From a virus, in the IMG/VR virus record IMGVR_UViG_3300032893_000137, positions 1 to 40,567 of that record: 40,567 bases of DNA. One strand, written 5' to 3'. Below are positions 11,774 to 40,567 of the stretch, one piece after another (positions within the stretch are counted from its first letter, which is position 1; every line of letters starts with the position of its first letter). The notes under the pieces are model-generated. The model saw only the letters and a program-made list of their open reading frames with translations. It was not told the origin of the DNA and searched no databases. The position numbers were made by a program, and so were the translations under genes.

Positions 11774-13370
<1,597 letters not shown>

Positions 13371-16966: not shown

Positions 16967-17215
16967 ATGGCCGGAACTTCCGACATTCTCCCCGCGATCA
17001 ATTTCCTTGCGGTGACACCCTCCGATACGGTTGATCTTCTTCCGACGGGGGCGCGTGCGTTATATGTAGGTACGGGTGGCGATGTGGTAGCGATTAATGC
17101 TTCAGGCGATCCGATCACGTTCAAGAACGTGCCGAGTGGGGCGTTCATGCCGATCTATACGACCCGCGTGAACGCAACCGATACGACGGCTGATGACATT
17201 ATTGCACTCTTCTGA
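16967..17215 (+). CDS. Spike-base-type small tail protein
   Basis: The protein has 82 residues. The pattern GARALYVGTGGDVVAIN, then ITFKNVPSGAFMPI, then RVNATDTTADDIIALF is a recognisable small virion-protein family found in many phages and in gene transfer agents, where it is described as a spike base protein (RCAP_Rcc01079 family). Length and motif order fit. It lies between the glycosyltransferase cassette and the second fibre group, in line with a tail tip role. The start is in a TTCCCTATGGCC context with no Shine-Dalgarno. Confidence 0.65.
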   Translation: MAGTSDILPAINFLAVTPSDTVDLLPTGARALYVGTGGDVVAINASGDPITFKNVPSGAFMPIYTTRVNATDTTADDIIALF

Positions 17216-17225
17216 GCTAAGTTTT

Positions 17226-17753
17226 ATGAGTAGACATTTTGGTAGTAAGTACAGACTGGGTACGGCAACTGTCGAATGTTTACATTGTCATACGAAAAAA
17301 GAAGTTAATGGTTATCGTGCAAAAGGATTTAAGTTTTGTTCTCGCGTATGTCAGATGGCTCATACGCCAGTATGGAATAAAGGACTTAAAACTGGTTTTA
17401 ATCCAAATCACAATAAGGCTCTAAGAGCTTCTTTAGAAAAAAGACCAGGAAGGACTCTTGGAATCGTTCATTCTGGTGGTTATGTCAAATGCGCTAAAGG
17501 TGGTCCCCAAAATTATGTCCGTGAACATCGAGAAGTGATGGCGAAAGCTATAGGTAGGCCGTTATCAAAAAAAGAAATTGTCCATCATTGGGATGAAAAT
17601 AAAACCAATAATGCACAATCAAATCTTGCGTTATTGCGTAGTAATTCAGCTCATACACGACTGCATAATTTCGCACGTCGCCATGGTATCAAGGTTAGTA
17701 TGCTAAAGTTTAATCAACCTTGGCTTTTTGAGCCGAGTGTTAACTCCGTCTAG
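17226..17753 (+). CDS. HNH homing endonuclease
   Basis: From ATG 17226 the protein has 175 residues. The frame opens at 17193, inside the upstream gene, but the shorter start fits the TTTTATG context. The N-terminal zinc finger is C-x2-C ... C-x3-C (CLHCHTKK, FCSRVCQ). The HNH core is VREHREVM ... EIVHHWDENKTNNAQSNLALL, with the H-H pair and the Asn residues of an HNH_3-type nuclease. It is a free-standing endonuclease inserted between tail genes, a usual place for these selfish genes. The local AT content is visibly higher than in the flanking structural genes, which supports later acquisition. Confidence 0.85.
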   Translation: MSRHFGSKYRLGTATVECLHCHTKKEVNGYRAKGFKFCSRVCQMAHTPVWNKGLKTGFNPNHNKALRASLEKRPGRTLGIVHSGGYVKCAKGGPQNYVREHREVMAKAIGRPLSKKEIVHHWDENKTNNAQSNLALLRSNSAHTRLHNFARRHGIKVSMLKFNQPWLFEPSVNSV

Positions 17754-17754
17754 T

Positions 17755-17907
17755 ATGCAAGGATTGATGCTCGGACTCGCCAATTCCGTTGTCTGGTTGC
17801 AGGATGTCTTTGGCATCAATCCTCCCTTCCCTCCGGGGTCATTCCTTGTGACCGAACAGAATGATCCGTTCATTACCGAAGGAGGAGATAACTTCATTAT
17901 TGAATAA
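17755..17907 (+). CDS. Small tail-region protein, unknown
   Basis: The encoded protein has 50 residues, hydrophobic at the start (MLGLANSVVWLQDVFGI) and acidic at the end (EGGDNFIIE). It starts 1 nt after the HNH stop in a TAGTATG arrangement and ends 2 nt before the next start, so it is tightly coupled. Short proteins ending in a FITEGGDNFIIE-type motif are frequent among phage tail genes. No function is assigned. Confidence 0.6.
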   Translation: MQGLMLGLANSVVWLQDVFGINPPFPPGSFLVTEQNDPFITEGGDNFIIE

Positions 17908-18371: not shown

Positions 18372-19829
18372 ATGCCCGAAACAATCGGGTATGCCCACCT
18401 AGGGCCAGACGGGAAAGTTCCGGCTGATGAAATTGGCGTTGGTCCGGGAGGTGCAACGGGTCCGACGGGATACACGGGGGACACGGGCCCTGGAAACTTC
18501 ACGGGTGATACGGGACCGACTGGCTATACCGGAGCCACGGGTTTTACCGGCCCGACAGGTTTTACTGGCCCGACAGGGTACACAGGTGATACGGGTTCCG
18601 CAGGTCCTCAAGGCATCCAAGGCCAAACAGGGTACACGGGATACACAGGCTATACGGGAGATAATGGCATCCGTGGAGCAACGGGCTATACCGGTTATAC
18701 GGGTTACACAGGTCATACCGGGTATACAGGGTACACGGGAGCAGGTGCTACAGGATATACGGGCCCGACAGGATATACAGGCTACACAGGCTACACAGGA
18801 GCAGGAAACTTTACGGGCTACACGGGATATACGGGTCCGACCGGCTATTCAGGTCCTCCAGGTGTGCAAGGCTCGACAGGCTATACAGGTTTTACTGGCT
18901 ATACAGGCCCGACGGGTCCGACTGGATATACGGGGCCTGCTGGGGCGGCCTCTGCTACGGGAGCGACCGGCTACACCGGTCCTACGGGATATACGGGGCA
19001 TGCAGGAAGTGATGGAGCAACGGGTCCGACAGGATACACGGGACCCACGGGATATACGGGAGATCCGGGAAATGCTTCCGCTACGGGTGCCACGGGCTAT
19101 ACAGGCTATACTGGGCCTGGCATTACGGGACCGACTGGATATACGGGGGATGATGGTCCGCAAGGTATTCAAGGCCCTACAGGCTATACCGGGTACACAG
19201 GGTACACAGGTGCGGGGAATTTCACCGGCCCTACGGGATATACTGGGCATACCGGATATACGGGGCCAACCGGTTACACCGGTTACACGGGAGCAGGGAA
19301 TTTCACCGGCTATACCGGTTACACGGGACCGACAGGCTACACGGGATATACGGGTCCCGGAGGGGCCGGAGGGAGTGGCACGTTTGTTGGCGTGCCCACA
19401 TCAACCACAATTACAGGCGATACGAGTGAGCATGATTTCTTTGTCGTCTCGGTTCCCGGAGGGACGCTGGGCACGACGGATGGCGTAACCATGCAGATTG
19501 CCGTTCAAGGAACGTTTTCGGGGGGCACAAATCCTACGTTCCGTCTCAAATACGGCACGACGACAATTGCGAATTTCACCGTTACAAGTTCCGGTGCGGG
19601 TGCATGGACGGCGTTTATCTATTGCACGCTTCTTGCAAACGGCTCTACCAGCTCGCAAGTGGCAAGTATCTCCTGTCTCATTCCGACGGCTACGATCAAC
19701 GGGGCGACCATTCTTTCGGGCACGGCATCCGAAAACTCGAACAACACGCTTGATTTCAAGGTAACGGTGCAAAATGCGGTAAGTACCGGCTCCGTTACGG
19801 CCTCGAATGGGTACGCGGTTCTCTACTAG
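18372..19829 (+). CDS. Long collagen-like tail fibre
   Basis: The protein has 485 residues. Residues 1-30 contain [18 protein letters not shown], a short attachment module common in fibre proteins. Residues 31-345 are uninterrupted collagen-like triplets dominated by GYTGYTG, GPTGYTG and GAGNFTG, with rare DNA-level variants. The last 140 residues are a beta-sandwich ([41 protein letters not shown]) that looks like a receptor-binding tip. It shares the Thr-Tyr-rich repeat type with 1717 and 11922. It is the last gene before the lysis cassette promoter. Confidence 0.8.
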
Positions 19830-23543: not shown

Positions 23544-23807
23544 CTATCTTACGATAGCAAGAACGTCTTCGTGCGACAAAATAAAGTACGTCTTTCCTTC
23601 AAGGGTAACTTCATCGGGAGCGTACTTCTTGAAAATCACCGTATCCCCGACTTCAATGCCCGCTCCAAGGATAGAGCTAATAGCCACAACTTCTCCCTGT
23701 TCGGGCCTCTCTTTCTCCGTGTTTGCAAGAAAAAGTCCTGACTCGGTTTGCTCGCCCTTTTCAAGCACCAAGACCAAAATACGATTGCCAAGAGGTTTGA
23801 TAGTCAT
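23544..23807 (-). CDS. groES: GroES-like co-chaperonin
   Basis: The protein has 87 residues, close to the usual 95-100 of GroES. MTIKPLGNRILVLVLE is the canonical first strand. The mobile loop follows (KGEQTESGLFLANTEKE), then GEVVAI, GDTVIFKKYAPDEV, and the closing LEGKTYFILSHEDVLAIV. Every element of the cpn10 fold is present in order. No GroEL is encoded, so the protein must work with the host chaperonin, as T4 gp31 does for capsid protein folding. It is the best-defined cellular-type gene in this block. Its start is at 23807 with a TTTCTATG context. Confidence 0.93.
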   Translation of the reverse strand: MTIKPLGNRILVLVLEKGEQTESGLFLANTEKERPEQGEVVAISSILGAGIEVGDTVIFKKYAPDEVTLEGKTYFILSHEDVLAIVR

Positions 23808-28863: not shown

Positions 28864-29029
28864 ACTCCCCGCTTTCCATCCCTCTTGGATGAACTTCGGA
28901 GAGCATGAGCTTGAAAGGGGCAGAGGGTCCACCAACCTTTCGGCTGATGAGTTTTCCTTTCAAGCAAAGCTCGCGGACATGACCAGCATCGGGAGATCCG
29001 ATTTCACGGCCCGACCCCCTTCACCTGAA

Positions 29030-29413
29030 CACACCGCTTTAGGGCTGTTAAGTGTGGTGCTATGAACACCGCGATTTTTCATAGAAATCATCCTTACCAG
29101 CCCCGAAGCGACGATGAATGGCTGCTCATTCACTTACGTCAGGGGCGGTTCTTCTCGGCCACCTTACTGAACCATTCATTTCGTATATTTGTCGCTACGG
29201 CCTCTCTTTCGAGAGAGCCGCCGGAAGAAGATGATGACTAACCGATATTCTTCAGCGGAATATCTTCCGTCGGTGTTTTTCATATGCTTATTTAACGCGC
29301 GGCATATGCCTTTTCATCATCTTCCGGCGACTGCCATCAGAGATGGCTCTGCCGCCGACAATTAACAGTGCGGCTAAGTGCCGCCCCAGAAGCCCTGTAA
29401 GGCTCTAGGGGCG
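29030..29413 (-). ncRNA. Candidate structured non-coding RNA
   Basis: The gap 28864-29416 (553 bp) has no gene over about 45 codons. It holds a dense set of helices on the - strand: a 16-bp stem 29219-29237/29314-29329 with a 3-nt bulge; inside it GATATTC hairpin (29244-29264) and CATATGC hairpin (29281-29308); a CTCTC-GAAA-GAGAG tetraloop hairpin (29202-29215, GNRA on the - strand); GCCATC/GATGGC (29333-29347); GCGGC/GCCGC (29370-29384); CGCCCC/GGGGCG with AGCC/GGCT (29382-29413); TGAATG/CATTCA (29115-29132) within GCCCC/GGGGC; and CACAC/GTGTG (29030-29056). The last two top hairpins share bases, so they compete. Two micro-ORFs with ATG starts (29176-29283, 35 codons; 28960-29091, 43 codons) could instead be real. 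The type is unknown. Confidence 0.5.
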
Positions 29414-29416
29414 ATC

Positions 29417-29578
29417 CTAAGCCCGTTTCCGGTTCAGAGCTTCATGTGCCGCCTTATAGTCTCTCTGCAAGGTATTATACCGCCTTTCACTCTGTATCTG
29501 CTGGAAAGCGATAAAGAGGAGGGAGAGGCCATTTGTAATGAACAGGATACCGATCAAAATGAGCAAGATAGAGTCCAT
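29417..29578 (-). CDS. Small N-terminally anchored membrane protein
   Basis: The encoded protein has 53 residues: a hydrophobic span (SILLILIGILFITNGLSLLFIAF, residues 3-25), then a charged helix (QSERRYNTLQRDYKAAHEALNRK). This is a type II-like single-span peptide with a coiled-coil tail. It lies just ahead of the structured gap and follows the GIY-YIG gene by 8 nt. The start is in CATATG. Function unknown. Confidence 0.55.
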   Translation of the reverse strand: MDSILLILIGILFITNGLSLLFIAFQQIQSERRYNTLQRDYKAAHEALNRKRA

Positions 29579-29586
29579 ATGGTTAT

Positions 29587-32645: not shown

Positions 32646-32976
32646 GATCCAACGCGCCATCCTCGACTACCTGATGTACAAGGGCATCTTGTGTTGGCGC
32701 AATCAAAGTATCCCCGTCCCCATCCGCCGTGGCCGTGAGATCGTCGGCCTTAGGCGTGCCGATCCCCATACGGTCGGCCAACCCGACATCATGGCTCTTG
32801 TACGGCCCAAAAATGCGTTATACGGGGTCTTGGTAGGCATCGAGGTAAAAGGGGCCAAGGGGAGGCTAAGCCCCGAGCAGGAGGCATGGCGCGACAAGAT
32901 CGTAAAAGCTGGAGGGGTGTGGATCCTTGCTCGGAGTATCGAGGATGTGGAACAGGGATTGGCACCCGTGCTATAA
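32632..32976 (+). CDS. VRR-NUC domain nuclease
   Basis: The protein has 114 residues. MKETEIQRAILDYLMYKGILCW is the N-terminal helix; GQPDIMAL carries the nuclease Asp, and GIEVKGAKGRLSPEQEAW carries the E-x-K and QxxW of VRR-NUC, followed by a valine/alanine strand. VRR-NUC enzymes are PD-(D/E)xK nucleases that cleave branched DNA. In phages of this type it probably resolves junctions made in replication or packaging. The stop codon overlaps the TATAAT of a promoter described below. Confidence 0.85.
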   Translation: MKETEIQRAILDYLMYKGILCWRNQSIPVPIRRGREIVGLRRADPHTVGQPDIMALVRPKNALYGVLVGIEVKGAKGRLSPEQEAWRDKIVKAGGVWILARSIEDVEQGLAPVL

Positions 32977-32977
32977 T
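32969..32977 (+). promoter_or_regulatory. Extended -10 promoter at the end of the VRR-NUC gene
   Basis: TGc followed by a perfect TATAAT (32972-32977) overlaps the nuclease stop codon. There is no good -35, as is allowed for extended -10 sites. The site faces right, with no gene in that direction for over 1 kb except on the opposite strand, so it most likely drives a short RNA. Confidence 0.5.
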
Positions 32978-32983
32978 CTCTCG

Positions 32984-33076
32984 GCCCCTAGAGCCCTTCA
33001 AGCGAAAAGCTTGGAGCCGGTCTACCCGCGTCATGCTCTACGGAAACACGAAAGCTCGGCCCATGCTGGGCTTTTT
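32984..33076 (+). ncRNA. Candidate small RNA with intrinsic terminator
   Basis: A rightward promoter (32969-32977) and an intrinsic terminator (33054-33076) bracket about 90 nt with no open reading frame. The sequence folds as an outer CGGC/GCCG helix around a CAAGC-GAAAA-GCTTG hairpin (near 33000-33016), then a linker, then the terminator. It sits between the nuclease gene and the HNH gene on the other strand. It has no tRNA-like features. Its function is unknown; a target could be host mRNA or antisense to the HNH region. Confidence 0.4.
33054..33076 (+). terminator. Intrinsic terminator
   Basis: Stem GCCCA (33059-33063) and TGGGC (33067-33071) with a TGC loop is followed by TTTTT. It ends the short rightward unit and stands just before the end of the converging HNH gene. 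Confidence 0.75.
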
Positions 33077-33080
33077 GTGT

Positions 33081-33680
33081 TTAATTTGCGAATATGCAGG
33101 CGAAAGTAGTTTTACATTTAAGGCACTTAATTCTTGCCGTTAGATCAGAAGACTTGCTTACGGTAAATTGTTTACCCCCGCATCTACAATAAAGACCCGA
33201 ACGGTTTTGCTTTCTTTTACCTCCCTGATAAAGGAACGTGTCCGTCACTTCAAGCAAACTCGGATATGGATGGCTTGACGGCCTTCGTTGATGCTTCCTT
33301 TTTCTTGCATCAAACCTTGCATGAATTGCATTATGGCAGGAGTCACAGACTATTCGTAAATCATCCATTCTTTCGTCTCCAAGACGTTCGTATGTCGCAT
33401 GATGGACATGCAAGCGTTCTCTTGAACCACATTTTTGGCATAAACGACCGTATAATTGAAAAGCCTCATTCTTTTTTTTCTGCCAAAGTTCCGTATTTAG
33501 GTATTCTTTATAGGATTCTTTGTATGTTTTTGGCTCTGACCAATGTTTCCCGTTTCGGAGTAATCTTTCCGGGTGTTTTTCAACAAATGAGCATGTTTCA
33601 CACTTAAAAACACCGCTTCCCATAACGGAGATTCGTACGTTCGCGCAGGAGACGCATTTGGTGGCTTTCGGTCGGTTCAT
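33081..33680 (-). CDS. HNH endonuclease with zinc knuckles
   Basis: The protein has 199 residues. The N-terminal CVSCANVRISVMGSG ... CETC knuckle, then NTELWQKKKNEAFQLYGRLCQKCGSRERLHVHHATYERLGDERMDDLRIVCDSCHNAIH is a complete HNH with two CxxC pairs around the HH motif. The C-terminal CRCGGKQFTV ... IKCLKCKTTF adds a second zinc ribbon. It faces a structured non-coding region at its 5' side (33681-34201) and the terminase genes beyond. The start CCTATGAACC is as in other leftward genes. Confidence 0.85.
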   Translation of the reverse strand: MNRPKATKCVSCANVRISVMGSGVFKCETCSFVEKHPERLLRNGKHWSEPKTYKESYKEYLNTELWQKKKNEAFQLYGRLCQKCGSRERLHVHHATYERLGDERMDDLRIVCDSCHNAIHARFDARKRKHQRRPSSHPYPSLLEVTDTFLYQGGKRKQNRSGLYCRCGGKQFTVSKSSDLTARIKCLKCKTTFACIFAN

Positions 33681-33743
33681 AGGTCGGTCTTTCTGCCAGC
33701 GGGCAAGCGGATACCCTAGCCCGTCGGTGTACGACTGCTTTTA

Positions 33744-34113
33744 GAACACTCTTTACTCGATTTAATATTCGAGAGTGTTTGTCATCGCTCTCCGTCCCAA
33801 GGCATTCGTCGCCGCAGGACAGGCTGTTATCCGCTCCCAATGCTTTGAGGAGTTGTGGATAGCCATGAAACGTCGAGACATCGTTTCACACGTATAGGTC
33901 TTTCTGCCATCGGTGTAAGCATCAACCCTCCCCGTGATTTAACTTGGCATCCAGCAGGCGGCTCACGGGGCTAGCCCGACCGATCCTGCCAGTAATAGGA
34001 GCCTAAGCAACACAAAATCCGCTAAAAGCGGGTCATGTGTGAAACGGACAATACAGGTTGTGCCGCGCTTTTGGCGCGGTAGGGAAATCCCTGCCTGTAT
34101 TGTTGCCGTTTCA
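33744..34113. ncRNA. Candidate structured element upstream of the terminase genes
   Basis: Between the HNH start (33680) and the small terminase start (34202) there is no gene in 520 bp. The span holds eight or more helices: AACACT/AGTGTT over CTCGA/TCGAG (33745-33779); TGAAACG/CGTTTCA (33866-33888); ATCGGT/ACCGAT (33909-33984) enclosing CCCCGTGA/TCACGGGG (33930-33970); CCGCT-AAA-AGCGG (34019-34031); and a 18-bp interrupted stem TGAAACGGACAATACAGG (34040-34057) with its complement (34094-34113), whose interior has a CCGCGC/GCGCGG hairpin (34063-34079) and GGG/CCC. The left arm CGTTTCACAC (33882-33891) can also pair perfectly with GTGTGAAACG (34037-34046), excluding both local stems. Strand is uncertain. 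A cis DNA element (pac, origin) is the alternative. Confidence 0.5.
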
Positions 34114-34201
34114 TAGGCCATTGGCAAGTGTATAACTTAAAGGCCGTCAATGGCAAGAGGGGATTTACCAAGATTTTGTCCACATGCTACCTTGTCATTA
34201 T

Positions 34202-34654
34202 ATGGCAATGGGACGACCATCAATTTTTACGCAAGAATTGGCCGACAAGATTTGTGCCGGAGTTGCCGAAGGGATTTCATTACGGACATTATGCAAAAAT
34301 GAAGAAATGCCGAGCCTTCCAACAATTTTTAGCTGGTTCAGACTTCATGAAGACTTTCTTAAACAATACGAGCGTGCAAAAGAGCAAAGCGCAGTCGCAG
34401 ATGATGAGACTTTACAGGAATTAAACGACTTGGTGATCGAAGAATCGAAGAAAGAAGACTTCAAACGTGCGAACGCGGTTGTGGCGGCCTACAAGCTCAA
34501 GGCCGATAACTTGAAGTGGGCTATGTCGAAGAAGCAACCGAAGAAGTATGGGGATAGGTTGGATTTAACGACGAAGAACAAAGAGTTCCCGGCTCCGATC
34601 TTGGGTGCTTTACTAAAGCAACATGGAGTTCAAGCCGACGACAGCACTAAATAA
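34202..34654 (+). CDS. terS: Terminase small subunit
   Basis: From ATG 34202 the protein has 150 residues; 34184 opens the frame and 34208 (MGRPSIFTQELADKI) is another in-frame ATG. The N terminus is a helix-turn-helix that would bind the packaging site (RPSIFTQELADKICAGVAEG, ISLRTLCKNEEMPSLPTIFSWF). The rest is helical with a long charged helix (ESKKEDFKRANAVVAAYKLKADNLKWAMSK), and a C-terminal tail. It overlaps the large subunit by 32 nt. The start is in TTATATG, with no Shine-Dalgarno. Confidence 0.85.
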   Translation: MAMGRPSIFTQELADKICAGVAEGISLRTLCKNEEMPSLPTIFSWFRLHEDFLKQYERAKEQSAVADDETLQELNDLVIEESKKEDFKRANAVVAAYKLKADNLKWAMSKKQPKKYGDRLDLTTKNKEFPAPILGALLKQHGVQADDSTK

Positions 34655-35861
34655 AATTGCGGCACTGAAGGCGAGGCTTCGGATTATCCAAGGTGGATCG
34701 AGTGCCGGAAAAACAATTGCCATTCTTTTGCTTTTGATCGATTACGCACAATCAACAAAGAACAAGCGCATCTCGGTCGTGTCCGAATCATTCCCGCATC
34801 TTCGCCGTGGCGCGATTGCGGATTTTATTAACATCATGGAGGGCCACAAGTACTACAAAGACGAACTATGGAATAAAACGGAAAGTACCTATACGTTCGA
34901 GACCGGAAGTTATATCGAGTTCTTCTCTGCTGACCAACCGAACAAAGTGCGTGGCCCTCGCCGTGATGTCTTGTTTCTGAATGAAGCGAACAACATCCCG
35001 CATGAGACGTATACGCAATTAGCCATTCGTACCAATGAGTTTATCTTCGTGGACTATAATCCCGTGAGTGAGTTCTGGGTTCATACGGAGATTTTACCCA
35101 AACAAGATCAACGGCATGATTTCCTGATTGTTACCTACAAAGACAATGAGCAACTTCCGGCGGCGATCATTGAAGAAATTGAAAGCCGAAAGAACAACAA
35201 GAACTTTTGGCAGGTGTATGGCTTAGGCCAGCTAGGTCAGGCCGAGGGCCGCATTTTCCGTGATTGGGCTTTAATTGACGACATCCCGCACGAAGCCAAG
35301 CTAGAGAGGTATGGACTCGACTTTGGGTACTCAAACGATCCTACGGCCCTTATAGGGGTCTACAGATACAACGGAGGACTCATCCTTGATGAAGTTCTGT
35401 ATCAAAAGGGTTTGAGCAATAAGCAGATCGCAGATGCGTTACTCAACCTTGAACGGGCTCTCGTGATTGCAGACTCCGCAGAACCAAAGAGCATAGACGA
35501 GCTTAGAAGCTATGGGCTTTCTGTTCTTCCCTCGAAGAAAGGGCCAGGCTCCGTCCTTCAAGGCATCCAATTTGTCCAAGAGCAAAAGATCAGCGTAACG
35601 AAACGTAGCCTTAACCTTCTCAAGGAATATCGAAACTATCTCTGGATGACGGACAAGGACGGCAAGATCATTAACGAGCCGGAGCATGAGTATAGCCATT
35701 CCATGGATGCGAGCCGGTACGCAATCGCCTCTTTCCGTCCGAACCAAGAAAATATGGCCAAGCAAGTGCAATTCAAGGGCACGATGGCTTATCGCCGCAC
35801 TTCTCCGAAAGCTTCGAGTTTAAGTCAGGCAGGCGGTTCTACGCTTGATATGTTACATTAA
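34623..35861 (+). CDS. terL: Terminase large subunit
   Basis: The protein has 412 residues. Walker A is QGGSSAGKT (about residues 23-31). Walker B is DVLFLNEAN. The C-motif region lies at FVDYNPVSEFW. The RuvC-like nuclease is YGLDFGYSNDPTALIGVY (first Asp), VIADSAEPKSIDELRSYG (second) and HSMDASRYAIASF (third). This layout matches the PBSX-type or Terminase_3 family. The ATPase and nuclease parts are both complete. It overlaps the small subunit gene, as is usual. Confidence 0.95.
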   Translation: MEFKPTTALNKIAALKARLRIIQGGSSAGKTIAILLLLIDYAQSTKNKRISVVSESFPHLRRGAIADFINIMEGHKYYKDELWNKTESTYTFETGSYIEFFSADQPNKVRGPRRDVLFLNEANNIPHETYTQLAIRTNEFIFVDYNPVSEFWVHTEILPKQDQRHDFLIVTYKDNEQLPAAIIEEIESRKNNKNFWQVYGLGQLGQAEGRIFRDWALIDDIPHEAKLERYGLDFGYSNDPTALIGVYRYNGGLILDEVLYQKGLSNKQIADALLNLERALVIADSAEPKSIDELRSYGLSVLPSKKGPGSVLQGIQFVQEQKISVTKRSLNLLKEYRNYLWMTDKDGKIINEPEHEYSHSMDASRYAIASFRPNQENMAKQVQFKGTMAYRRTSPKASSLSQAGGSTLDMLH

Positions 35862-38699: not shown

Positions 38700-38865
38700 G
38701 ACCTTTCTTTTTGGGAAGGAAAAAGCTAAATCACGTCTGCTCGACAGGACGTGCAAGCGTTTGCTTCGCCTAAATAAAAAGATTGAAAAACGATATGGAG
38801 TAGGGATGGATCAAAAATATCTTGATGAATATGAGATGCTCAAGTTGCAAGGAGGAAAGAAATGA
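38677..38865 (+). CDS. Small basic helical protein
   Basis: The protein has 62 residues: MRLRLKIETFLFGKEKAKSRLL, described as residues 1-22, then DRTCKRLLRLNKKIEKRYG and a Lys-rich tail. It overlaps the previous gene by 23 nt and the next by 35 nt. It is a coupled minor gene, not recognised. Confidence 0.5.
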   Translation: MRLRLKIETFLFGKEKAKSRLLDRTCKRLLRLNKKIEKRYGVGMDQKYLDEYEMLKLQGGKK

Positions 38866-39385
38866 ACCTTTGTCCTACTGGGACAGGTTCAAACTCTGGT
38901 TGCTTCAACATCTCCACGATGAGTTGAATGATGAAAAGGCCGATGCCTTTACATCCGGCTTTGGCGATGGATACAAAAAAGGCTTTGAAGAAGCCAATGA
39001 ACGCGCCAAGGAACGCGAGACTTTTTGGATGGAACAGGTAAGAAAGTCCGAGGAATATCTTCCGATGGATTTGCGGCTTAACCTGGATGGAGTAATCGAG
39101 GCAAAACCCGTGAATGGTTTGATCGGGCTCTCTCTTGGAGGGCGTGCTTTGGATAGCGAGGAAGTAAGCGTGCTTAAGCAGGAAAGTGATGCTTTGCTAC
39201 GCTCTCGGTTGTGGGCTATTATGCAAGAGACGGTCAAGCAAAAAGCGATTGATAAGACCGTCCGTGAAAGTACCAACTGGGAACAGGCTCTTGCAGGCAA
39301 AATGATGATCCATTCTCTTGGGCTCCTAAAGTCCATCGTGGATGCGGTCGAGCGTGCCTCGGTTCCTTCCGAACAGAACAAATAA
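38831..39385 (+). CDS. Coiled-coil protein of the head module, unknown
   Basis: From ATG 38831 (AATATG context) the protein has 184 residues; ATG 38825 and TTG 38822 are earlier in-frame options. CSSC near the start could bind a metal. A helix-rich body follows (FGDGYKKGFEEANERAKERETFWMEQVRKS, residues about 45-75; DALLRSRLWAIMQETVKQKAIDK). Overlaps the previous gene by 35 nt. It precedes the regulated region ahead of the scaffold, so it may be an assembly or head-completion factor. Not recognised. Confidence 0.5.
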   Translation: MRCSSCKEERNEPLSYWDRFKLWLLQHLHDELNDEKADAFTSGFGDGYKKGFEEANERAKERETFWMEQVRKSEEYLPMDLRLNLDGVIEAKPVNGLIGLSLGGRALDSEEVSVLKQESDALLRSRLWAIMQETVKQKAIDKTVRESTNWEQALAGKMMIHSLGLLKSIVDAVERASVPSEQNK

Positions 39386-39465
39386 AGACTGGGGACACTT
39401 GGAGAGACACTCCGGGAGGGAATGTTTTATATTAGCCCCAGTCTTTTGTAAGACCATTCCCGCCC
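39384..39465 (+). promoter_or_regulatory. Interlocking stems (pseudoknot-type) ahead of the capsid genes
   Basis: Stem 1 pairs AAAGACTGGGG (39384-39394) with CCCCAGTCTTT (39436-39446), 11 perfect bp. Stem 2 pairs GGGAGGGAAT (39414-39423) with ATTCCCGCCC (39456-39465), 9 of 10 positions. The arms alternate 1-2-1'-2', the arrangement of an H-type pseudoknot. It lies right after the stop of the 38831 gene. A GGAG-AGACA-CTCC hairpin nests in the loop. A regulator of read-through or translation, or an RNA processing signal, is likely. Confidence 0.55.
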
Positions 39466-39469
39466 GTAG

Positions 39470-39493
39470 CGTCCCCCCAAGGGACGGTTTTTA
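39470..39493 (+). terminator. Intrinsic terminator ahead of the scaffold gene
   Basis: CGTCCC (39470-39475) pairs with GGGACG (39481-39486) across a CCCAA loop, and GTTTTTATT follows. It directly follows the pseudoknot-type element, so the two could form an attenuator that decides whether polymerase reads into the scaffold and capsid genes. Confidence 0.7.
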
Positions 39494-39559
39494 TTAGCAA
39501 AGCCTCCAAACTTTGTTACGGAGAAACGCCGCCTCCGGCCAATGCGGTTTACAAAATCT

Positions 39560-40126
39560 ATGGCAGAAGAAGCCAAGGGAGTTGAAGAAACGACCGAGCA
39601 AGCTCCCGCCGGTCAATCAGGTGTTGAATCAACTTCAGTCGCACCTGCTGAAGACCCCGAAGCGAAGATCAACGCTCTCTTGGAGGAGAACGCGAAGCTT
39701 CGTAGCGATCGGGACAACTATCGCAACGCGACTTTGGCCTTGAAAGGCAAGAAAGAGCTCGAAGAGCTTGATCTCTCCGATCCGACCCAAGTCCAGACTT
39801 TCATTCAAAAATCCATCGAAGAACGACTGACCCAAGAGAAGGTAAGTGCGAATGAGAGCGAGCTTGAACGCGTGGTCAAAGACCAAGCCAAAAAGCTCAA
39901 GGAGTTGCAATTCGCTTTGGCCAATAAGTCCGTGGTCAACGGAACGGCGGCCGGAGGCGCGGGAAGTGAACCCGTAGCCTCTCCGAAAGTCGGCTATTTC
40001 TCTCCGGAGCAAAAAGCTGATTTGGAAAAGCGTTGGAAGGCAGTCGGCATCAAGGCGGAGAAATACCCCGAAATGCTGAAGCAAGCCGAAGAAAACGCTA
40101 AGCGCGTAACTCCCGGAAGTCTCTAA
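39560..40126 (+). CDS. Capsid scaffolding protein
   Basis: From ATG 39560 (TCTATGGC, like other late starts) the protein has 188 residues; ATG 39542 is the alternative. It is acidic, Glu/Lys/Gln-rich and almost wholly helical. A coiled coil runs from LLEENAKLRSDRDNY (residue 45) to VVKDQAKKLKELQFALANK (residue 125), followed by a flexible Gly/Ala linker and a C-terminal helical pair (SPEQKADLEKRWKAVGIKAEKYPEMLKQAEE), positions 152-182, of the kind that contacts coat protein. Its place before decoration and capsid genes is standard. Confidence 0.75.
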   Translation: MAEEAKGVEETTEQAPAGQSGVESTSVAPAEDPEAKINALLEENAKLRSDRDNYRNATLALKGKKELEELDLSDPTQVQTFIQKSIEERLTQEKVSANESELERVVKDQAKKLKELQFALANKSVVNGTAAGGAGSEPVASPKVGYFSPEQKADLEKRWKAVGIKAEKYPEMLKQAEENAKRVTPGSL

Positions 40127-40180: not shown

Positions 40181-40567
40181 ATGTTGGGTGATATTCTCAT
40201 CTACGATGAAGGAGCATTCGGCTATCCCGGCGACGAAGAATTCGCCGTAGCCGCGAGTGCGACCCTTATCTATCCGGGAGAACCTGTGGCCAAAGCCTTG
40301 GGTAATTCCTCTGGAAAGGTGGTTGCTCCTGCCGCGACCGCTACGCCGGTCGTTGGTACGAACTATTACGCAGGTATTGCGGCGACGACCTCGACCAATA
40401 CCTCCACGGCCGCAGGCACGGTCAAAGTAACCAAGCTTGTTCCCGGCGTGACGTATCTGTGCGCCCCGACGGTGGCTGCCTCATGGGATACGCAAAGCGA
40501 ATACGATGCCCTTGTGGGTGCGCGTGTGCGTTTTACGTTGTCCGGCGGCGTGTACACCGTTGATGCC
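40181..40567 (+). CDS. Decoration (head-stabilising) protein 1, 5' part; continues at 1-232
   Basis: This is the N-terminal portion of the 163-residue protein completed at 1-232. It starts MLGDILIYDEGAFGYPGDEEFAV, described as residues 1-23, followed by LIYPGEPVAKALGNSSGKVV, ATPVVGTNYYAGIAATTST and AGTVKVTKLVPGVTYLCAP. The PGEPVAK proline-rich turn is typical of phage decoration proteins that trimerise on the capsid. The ATG follows the 11-bp hairpin at 40144-40179. The last 127 bases are repeated at the window start. Confidence 0.72.
   Translation, partial: MLGDILIYDEGAFGYPGDEEFAVAASATLIYPGEPVAKALGNSSGKVVAPAATATPVVGTNYYAGIAATTSTNTSTAAGTVKVTKLVPGVTYLCAPTVAASWDTQSEYDALVGARVRFTLSGGVYTVDA
40441..40567. 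repeat. Right copy of the 127-bp terminal overlap
   Basis: Identical to 1-127. See the left copy; removing one copy yields a single uninterrupted decoration gene. Confidence 0.93.

Follow-up and report, generated by a model that had tools for sequence, protein, structure and literature searches.

Structured noncoding DNA between an HNH endonuclease gene and the terminase genes of an environmental phage, and an attenuator-like element ahead of its capsid genes

Results

The window analyzed here, the whole stretch of DNA under study, is a 40,567-base virus record from an environmental phage, read on one strand. A 127-base exact repeat is present at both ends (1-127 = 40441-40567), and the assembly can therefore be closed into a circle of roughly 40.44 kb; the repeat only shows this circular closure of the assembly and nothing further. 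At 33081-33680, the minus strand encodes an HNH endonuclease of 199 aa (PF01844, E value of 3.2e-5; PHROG HNH families). Divergent from it on the plus strand are the genes for the terminase small subunit, terS (34184-34654; PF20901, E value of 4.4e-28), in which alignment places the beginning of homology at the methionine codon at 34208, and for the terminase large subunit, terL (34623-35861; PF17288 and PF04466). Pfam types the packaging genes as an Sf6-type TerS with a Terminase_3/3C TerL. The junction between the HNH gene and terS is the divergent transcription point of the genome, with minus-strand genes mostly to the left and plus-strand genes to the right, and it marks the divergent early/late switch, with a probable terS promoter downstream of it. 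Elsewhere in the window there are a GroES gene (23544-23807, minus strand) and several genes with collagen-like GXY repeats, read from the DNA (2004-2124, 12515-12955, and 18455-19372). At 32969-33075 on the plus strand, there is a TGCTATAAT box where the VRR_NUC gene ends, with a good terminator hairpin 80 to 100 nt downstream, a combination that could possibly represent a small RNA.

No open reading frame of at least 60 aa fits in the core of the junction (33,841-34,127), and the one at 33604-33840 (minus strand) had no match in Pfam or PHROG, so that the sequence-only reading of a gene-free stretch between the HNH gene and terS/terL is borne out. Noncoding, hairpin-rich sequence covers 33,686-34,160 (about 480 nt); the structured block itself, at about 33,686-34,155, is slightly longer than that reading had delimited. 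RNA folding of 33681-34183 gave -187.9 kcal/mol on the plus strand (z score of -5.2) and -177.2 kcal/mol on the minus strand (z score of -4.0), with 0 of 100 shuffles folding as well in either case; repeat folding with 25 shuffles gave z scores of -4.5 to -5.6 and -3.1 to -3.2, respectively. In the same test, two coding controls of 500 nt scored -1.2 to +0.6, and most other gaps between genes of the window scored near 0 to -2. There are 13 inverted pairs of 8 nt in the junction versus 1.7 in shuffles, and none of 1,000 shuffles reached 13. A direct repeat of 12 to 13 nt was matched by 0.5% of shuffles; a lone 10-nt inverted pair, seen in 8.6% of them, is not rare. The structure of the junction exceeds chance, and the region is unusually structured and noncoding. 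The idea that it is merely GC-rich intergenic DNA that folds well agrees with the failure to find conservation, but against the shuffles and the scores of the other gaps it is very improbable.

The fold contains the eight or more helices that had been proposed, and all the coordinates claimed for arms and repeats are exact in the sequence. All features described below are on the plus strand. The direct repeat GGTCTTTCTGCC (33686-33697 and 33897-33908) was mapped as GGTCTTTCTGCCAGCGG at 33686-33702, which abuts the HNH start codon, and GGTCTTTCTGCCATCGG at 33897-33913, at a spacing of 211 from the first copy. Folding identified hairpin A (GCGGGC/GCCCGT, 33699-33724), whose loop AGCGGATA is complementary to 33828-33835 as an inverted repeat, hairpin C (GGCTGTTATCC.../GGATAGCC, 33822-33864), hairpin F (ACACA..ATCCGCT/AGCGGGT..TGTGT, 34010-34040), and hairpin H (GCCATTG.../CAATGGC, 34117-34155). 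Inverted-repeat analysis and folding both gave hairpin B (AACACTCT/AGAGTGTT, 33745-33779), hairpin D (ATGAAACG/CGTTTCAC, 33865-33889), hairpin E (CCCCGTGA/TCACGGGG, 33930-33970), and the three-way junction G (34040-34113), which has a closing stem of TGAAACGG-ACAATACAGG with CCTGTATTGT-CCGTTTCA and two inner hairpins. A tandem duplication of the two junction halves was rejected, as its modest alignment scores were exceeded by some shuffles, and so was a pseudoknot at 34020-34104, the score of which (54) lay inside the shuffle range.

The sequence-only reading had described the element as bistable. The two segments on which this was based, CGTTTCACAC at 33882-33891 and GTGTGAAACG at 34037-34046, are exact complements and give an alternative long-range helix of 10 bp, for which probability and energy were computed; ATGAAACG at 33865-33872 and CGTTTCAT at 34107-34114 are also perfect complements and give a companion swap helix of 8 bp, and both helices are found as inverted repeats. 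As both arm pairs are perfectly complementary, all four arms are able to swap. The arm TGAAACG/CGTTTCA is common to hairpin D and the closing stem of G, and cross-pairing between them arises partly because the arms are inverted copies of each other. The swapped pairs match better (10/10 and 8/8) than the local pairs of D and G. The alternative helices thus exist on paper, but they are weakly populated: the swap has a pairing probability of about 0.005 on the plus strand and about 0 on the minus strand, and forcing it worsens the minimum free energy by 3.7 and 6.7 kcal/mol, respectively. Judging from the folding model, a bistable fold is possible but is not favored unless a ligand, a protein, or cotranscriptional folding assists it.

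A candidate terS promoter, TTGTCC-17-TATATG, was read by eye at 34176-34204 on the plus strand, with 3 nt separating it from the conserved ATG at 34208, and the same 3-nt spacing is found in the phage L029 (TATAAT-GAC-ATG). The box had no significant match in a promoter scan that, taken alone, is at chance level. Its position and the spacing shared with L029 suggest a terS promoter downstream of the junction element, and terS probably has its own promoter there. No convincing plus-strand promoter was found by the scan ahead of the element, and 33744-34183 contains no good U-tract terminator. The terS start lies 29 to 53 nt past the last hairpin, and no expression platform, as a terminator or as masking of the ribosome site, was found in the element. 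Shine-Dalgarno motifs are missing from most start codons of this phage.

Rfam gave no match to the junction at the gathering score, and at E values of ≤5 over 33500-34300 it returned only chance miRNA, rRNA, and sRNA fragments, consistent with the earlier failure to recognize a known RNA family. The models of the group I and group II intron catalytic cores had no match in the junction. A packaging RNA like that of phi29 had also been considered, and the junction resembles phi29 pRNA (Rfam phage_pRNA) in being noncoding, structured, and near packaging genes. However, it has no Rfam pRNA match, and its length, structure, and position differ; in addition, phi29 is a protein-primed phage with an RNA-dependent packaging ATPase and no TerS, whereas the window has the Sf6-type TerS and the Terminase_3/3C TerL. 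The proposal is unsupported. GOLLD, ROOL, and OLE are large ornate RNAs of phages and bacteria (PMC12286853). The junction shares with them and with HEARO the character of a large structured noncoding RNA, sometimes found in phages or beside HNH genes, but it differs from GOLLD, ROOL, and OLE in having no covariance match and no oligomer or motif evidence, and from HEARO/OMEGA RNA in having no Rfam match and in that the 199-aa protein matches HNH families only, as opposed to an IscB-like RuvC-HNH protein. Mutually exclusive pairings are a feature of attenuators and riboswitches as well, but the junction has no terminator or start codon sequestration.

The order HNH, spacer, terS, and terL is that of the cos/pac region of HK97 and its relatives, a known packaging arrangement in which HK97 gp74 stimulates cos cleavage in vitro (PMC11331095). 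The junction might accordingly be a DNA-level control site, where the inverted repeats are operators, a replication origin, or pac/cos and the folding is a by-product of palindromes. Its position at the divergent junction, with the AT skew minimum of the window at 33,916, would fit such a site, as would hairpin D (ATGAAACG-N9-CGTTTCAC), which resembles a dimeric operator with arms recurring inverted at 34037-34117. However, this AT skew minimum is explained by gene orientation alone, and no origin signal was found by GC skew over the window. The stems are long, imperfect, and multibranched, RNA energy is better on one strand, and there are no iterated terS-like repeats past one pair. Furthermore, the HNH gene reads in the opposite direction and is missing from seven related phages and therefore is not a conserved packaging partner: searches of the 7 related phage records and, by pattern, of IMG/VR, both run with no positive control for their sensitivity, gave no relative of the HNH protein. 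The Sf6-type TerS, another difference from the HK97 arrangement, suggests headful packaging, for which one would not expect a dedicated site of 480 bp. We consider a DNA site possible but somewhat unlikely.

We looked for homologs of the junction by blastn against INPHARED, PLSDB, and 36 TerL-related and 7 portal-related records and found none, and searches with HNH, TerS, and TerL, which included related IMG/VR contigs, found no relative carrying the element. The CCGMTGGCAGAAAGACC repeat pattern had seven matches in IMG/VR, at least four of which fit the coding motif RWQKD; a match in L204 near terS was short and inverted with respect to terS and was judged to be chance. TerL relatives are at most 69% identical, and the TerS protein in most of them is a different one. 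Among the phages found, L206/L207 come closest, with 87% identity in the major capsid protein (MCP) and 78% in the portal protein. The gene order in L207 is VRR_NUC (minus strand), Zn-finger gene, 702-aa primase gene, 215-nt spacer, and terS, with no HNH gene, versus VRR_NUC (plus strand), HNH (minus strand), junction element, and terS in the window, where no trace of an L207-type primase was found. With a primase in the sister slot and the HNH gene and element in the window, what lies between the replication and packaging modules varies, and the element and HNH gene are lineage specific, as judged from these gene orders. Structured noncoding DNA that has no sequence similarity to the junction lies upstream of terS in some related phages: stacked multibranch elements with closing stems in L029, the 215-nt structured spacer in L206/L207, and, in the more distant L204, a promoter-like sequence close to consensus, a fold, and a hairpin resembling a terminator. 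The L029 region (740-1660) has at least three multibranch elements in a row, with closing stems of 12 to 20 bp. In most terminase relatives, a structured spacer is missing.

The junction could also be a scar of recombination or of a mobile element. In this case, an HNH gene with palindromic flanks would have entered between the replication and packaging modules, and the hairpins would be leftovers or a minus-strand leader of the HNH mRNA. The sister slot holds the Zn-finger and primase genes in place of HNH and the direct repeat reaches the HNH start codon, both of which speak for a scar; four HNH/GIY-YIG genes in the window resemble homing endonucleases, and one of them splits a gene that is continuous in the phage G037. 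A weak promoter-like pair also lies on the minus strand just before the element, but the scan that gave it is at chance level and the minus-strand fold energy is the weaker one. A 500-nt structured region with direct repeats follows an HNH-like gene in the phage G043 as well. No target duplication or empty site could be defined, and we regard a scar as doubtful.

Other endonuclease-linked regions were noted. In the window, two plus-strand open reading frames (16967-17215 and 17728-17907) match one continuous G037 gene (15784-15383), and an HNH_3 open reading frame (17193-17753) sits between them; from this comparison, the window gene at 16967-17907 appears to have been interrupted by an HNH gene. 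About 720 nt of structured noncoding DNA at 28865-29586 (minus strand; z score of -7.1 on that strand) lies directly 3' of a GIY-YIG/NUMOD3 gene; it has several closing stems, including one of 16 bp (29219-29234/29314-29329), and no Rfam match at the gathering score. The G043 region (L216:842-1341) has the direct repeats CCCTCTCGCTCAARTG (918 and 1161) and ACAGTGCCGT (1209 and 1305), so that partner switching among its closing stems may be possible, as proposed for the window junction.

In a whole-genome scan for interleaved helices, the top match of the window was 39384-39481, about 5 kb from the junction. The element (39,384-39,505, plus strand), which is pseudoknot-like, runs into an intrinsic terminator and is flanked by a head-operon gene (38822-39385) and by the gene preceding the capsid region (39542-40126), about 1.8 kb before the MCP gene. 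The same arrangement occurs in other relatives, with copies at 7066-7175 in L226 and about 1.2 to 1.5 kb before the MCP gene in L228, L234, L232, L233, L236, and L239. Eight phages were scored (the window, L206, L212, L209, L232, L233, L236, and L239), in which helix P1 has 8 to 15 bp and helix P3 20 to 30 bp; the scores of all eight (61.6 to 78.6) were above the best of 320 shuffles (60.8). The arm sequences of P1 and P3 are almost wholly different among the eight phages, and the pairing is retained. In the cases read by eye, the 3' arm of P3 overlaps the 5' arm of a hairpin with a U-run behind it. With loops of 0 to 13 nt, full P1 and full P3 should sterically exclude each other, which would give the order anti-antiterminator (P1), antiterminator (P3), and terminator, the very layout that the junction does not have. 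Rfam had no match at the gathering threshold, and one search of the literature turned up nothing similar. The element appears to be a so far unreported transcription attenuator that precedes the capsid genes, and it is a stronger RNA element and a more valuable lead than the junction. In L207 (1675-1765), just before the Zn-finger/primase operon, the helix GGTTCTCC/GGAGAACC interleaves with the helix AAAACCGTT.../...AACGGTTTT, after which T's follow, and the arrangement resembles the capsid-operon attenuator.

Discussion

The most likely function of the junction, which we put forward tentatively and at somewhat below even chances, is that of a transcribed, structured cis RNA read toward terS. 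This reading rests on the stronger z score of the plus strand and the excess of inverted pairs (13 versus 1.7), on the structured DNA before terS in L029, L206/L207, and L204, and on the conserved RNA switch elsewhere in the same genome, at 39.4 kb. Three further structured regions of the group (window 39386-39541 on plus, window 28865-29586 on minus, and the G037 capsid-operon element) have their stronger z score on the transcribed or same-operon strand; by this rule, the junction would be read on the plus strand. Speaking against the cis RNA are the missing homologs, the missing plus-strand promoter ahead and U-tract terminator behind, the probable terS promoter downstream of the element, the lack of a structured spacer in most terminase relatives, and the thermodynamically minor swap.

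Transcription of the junction, a working role for the plus strand, and use of the second fold are our inferences. In the proposed mechanism, about 480 nt of the divergent early/late junction would form a cis-encoded structured RNA, most likely transcribed toward terS and terL. Transcripts on their way into the packaging operon would be controlled or processed by its series of hairpins and single three-way junction, with a second fold available through the swappable TGAAACG arms. A more specific proposal, a plus-strand RNA switch at the early/late junction that gates transcription into the packaging operon through partner exchange among the four TGAAACG arms, is improbable; it would be one of several structured RNA regulators in this phage lineage that share no sequence similarity, of which the 39.4-kb attenuator is conserved.

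If transcribed, the junction would place an orphan structured RNA where a phage late operon is controlled. The 39.4-kb element, with covariation visible in eight phages, would represent a new form of RNA-based control over the expression of capsid genes, and this phage lineage appears to use RNA structure heavily.
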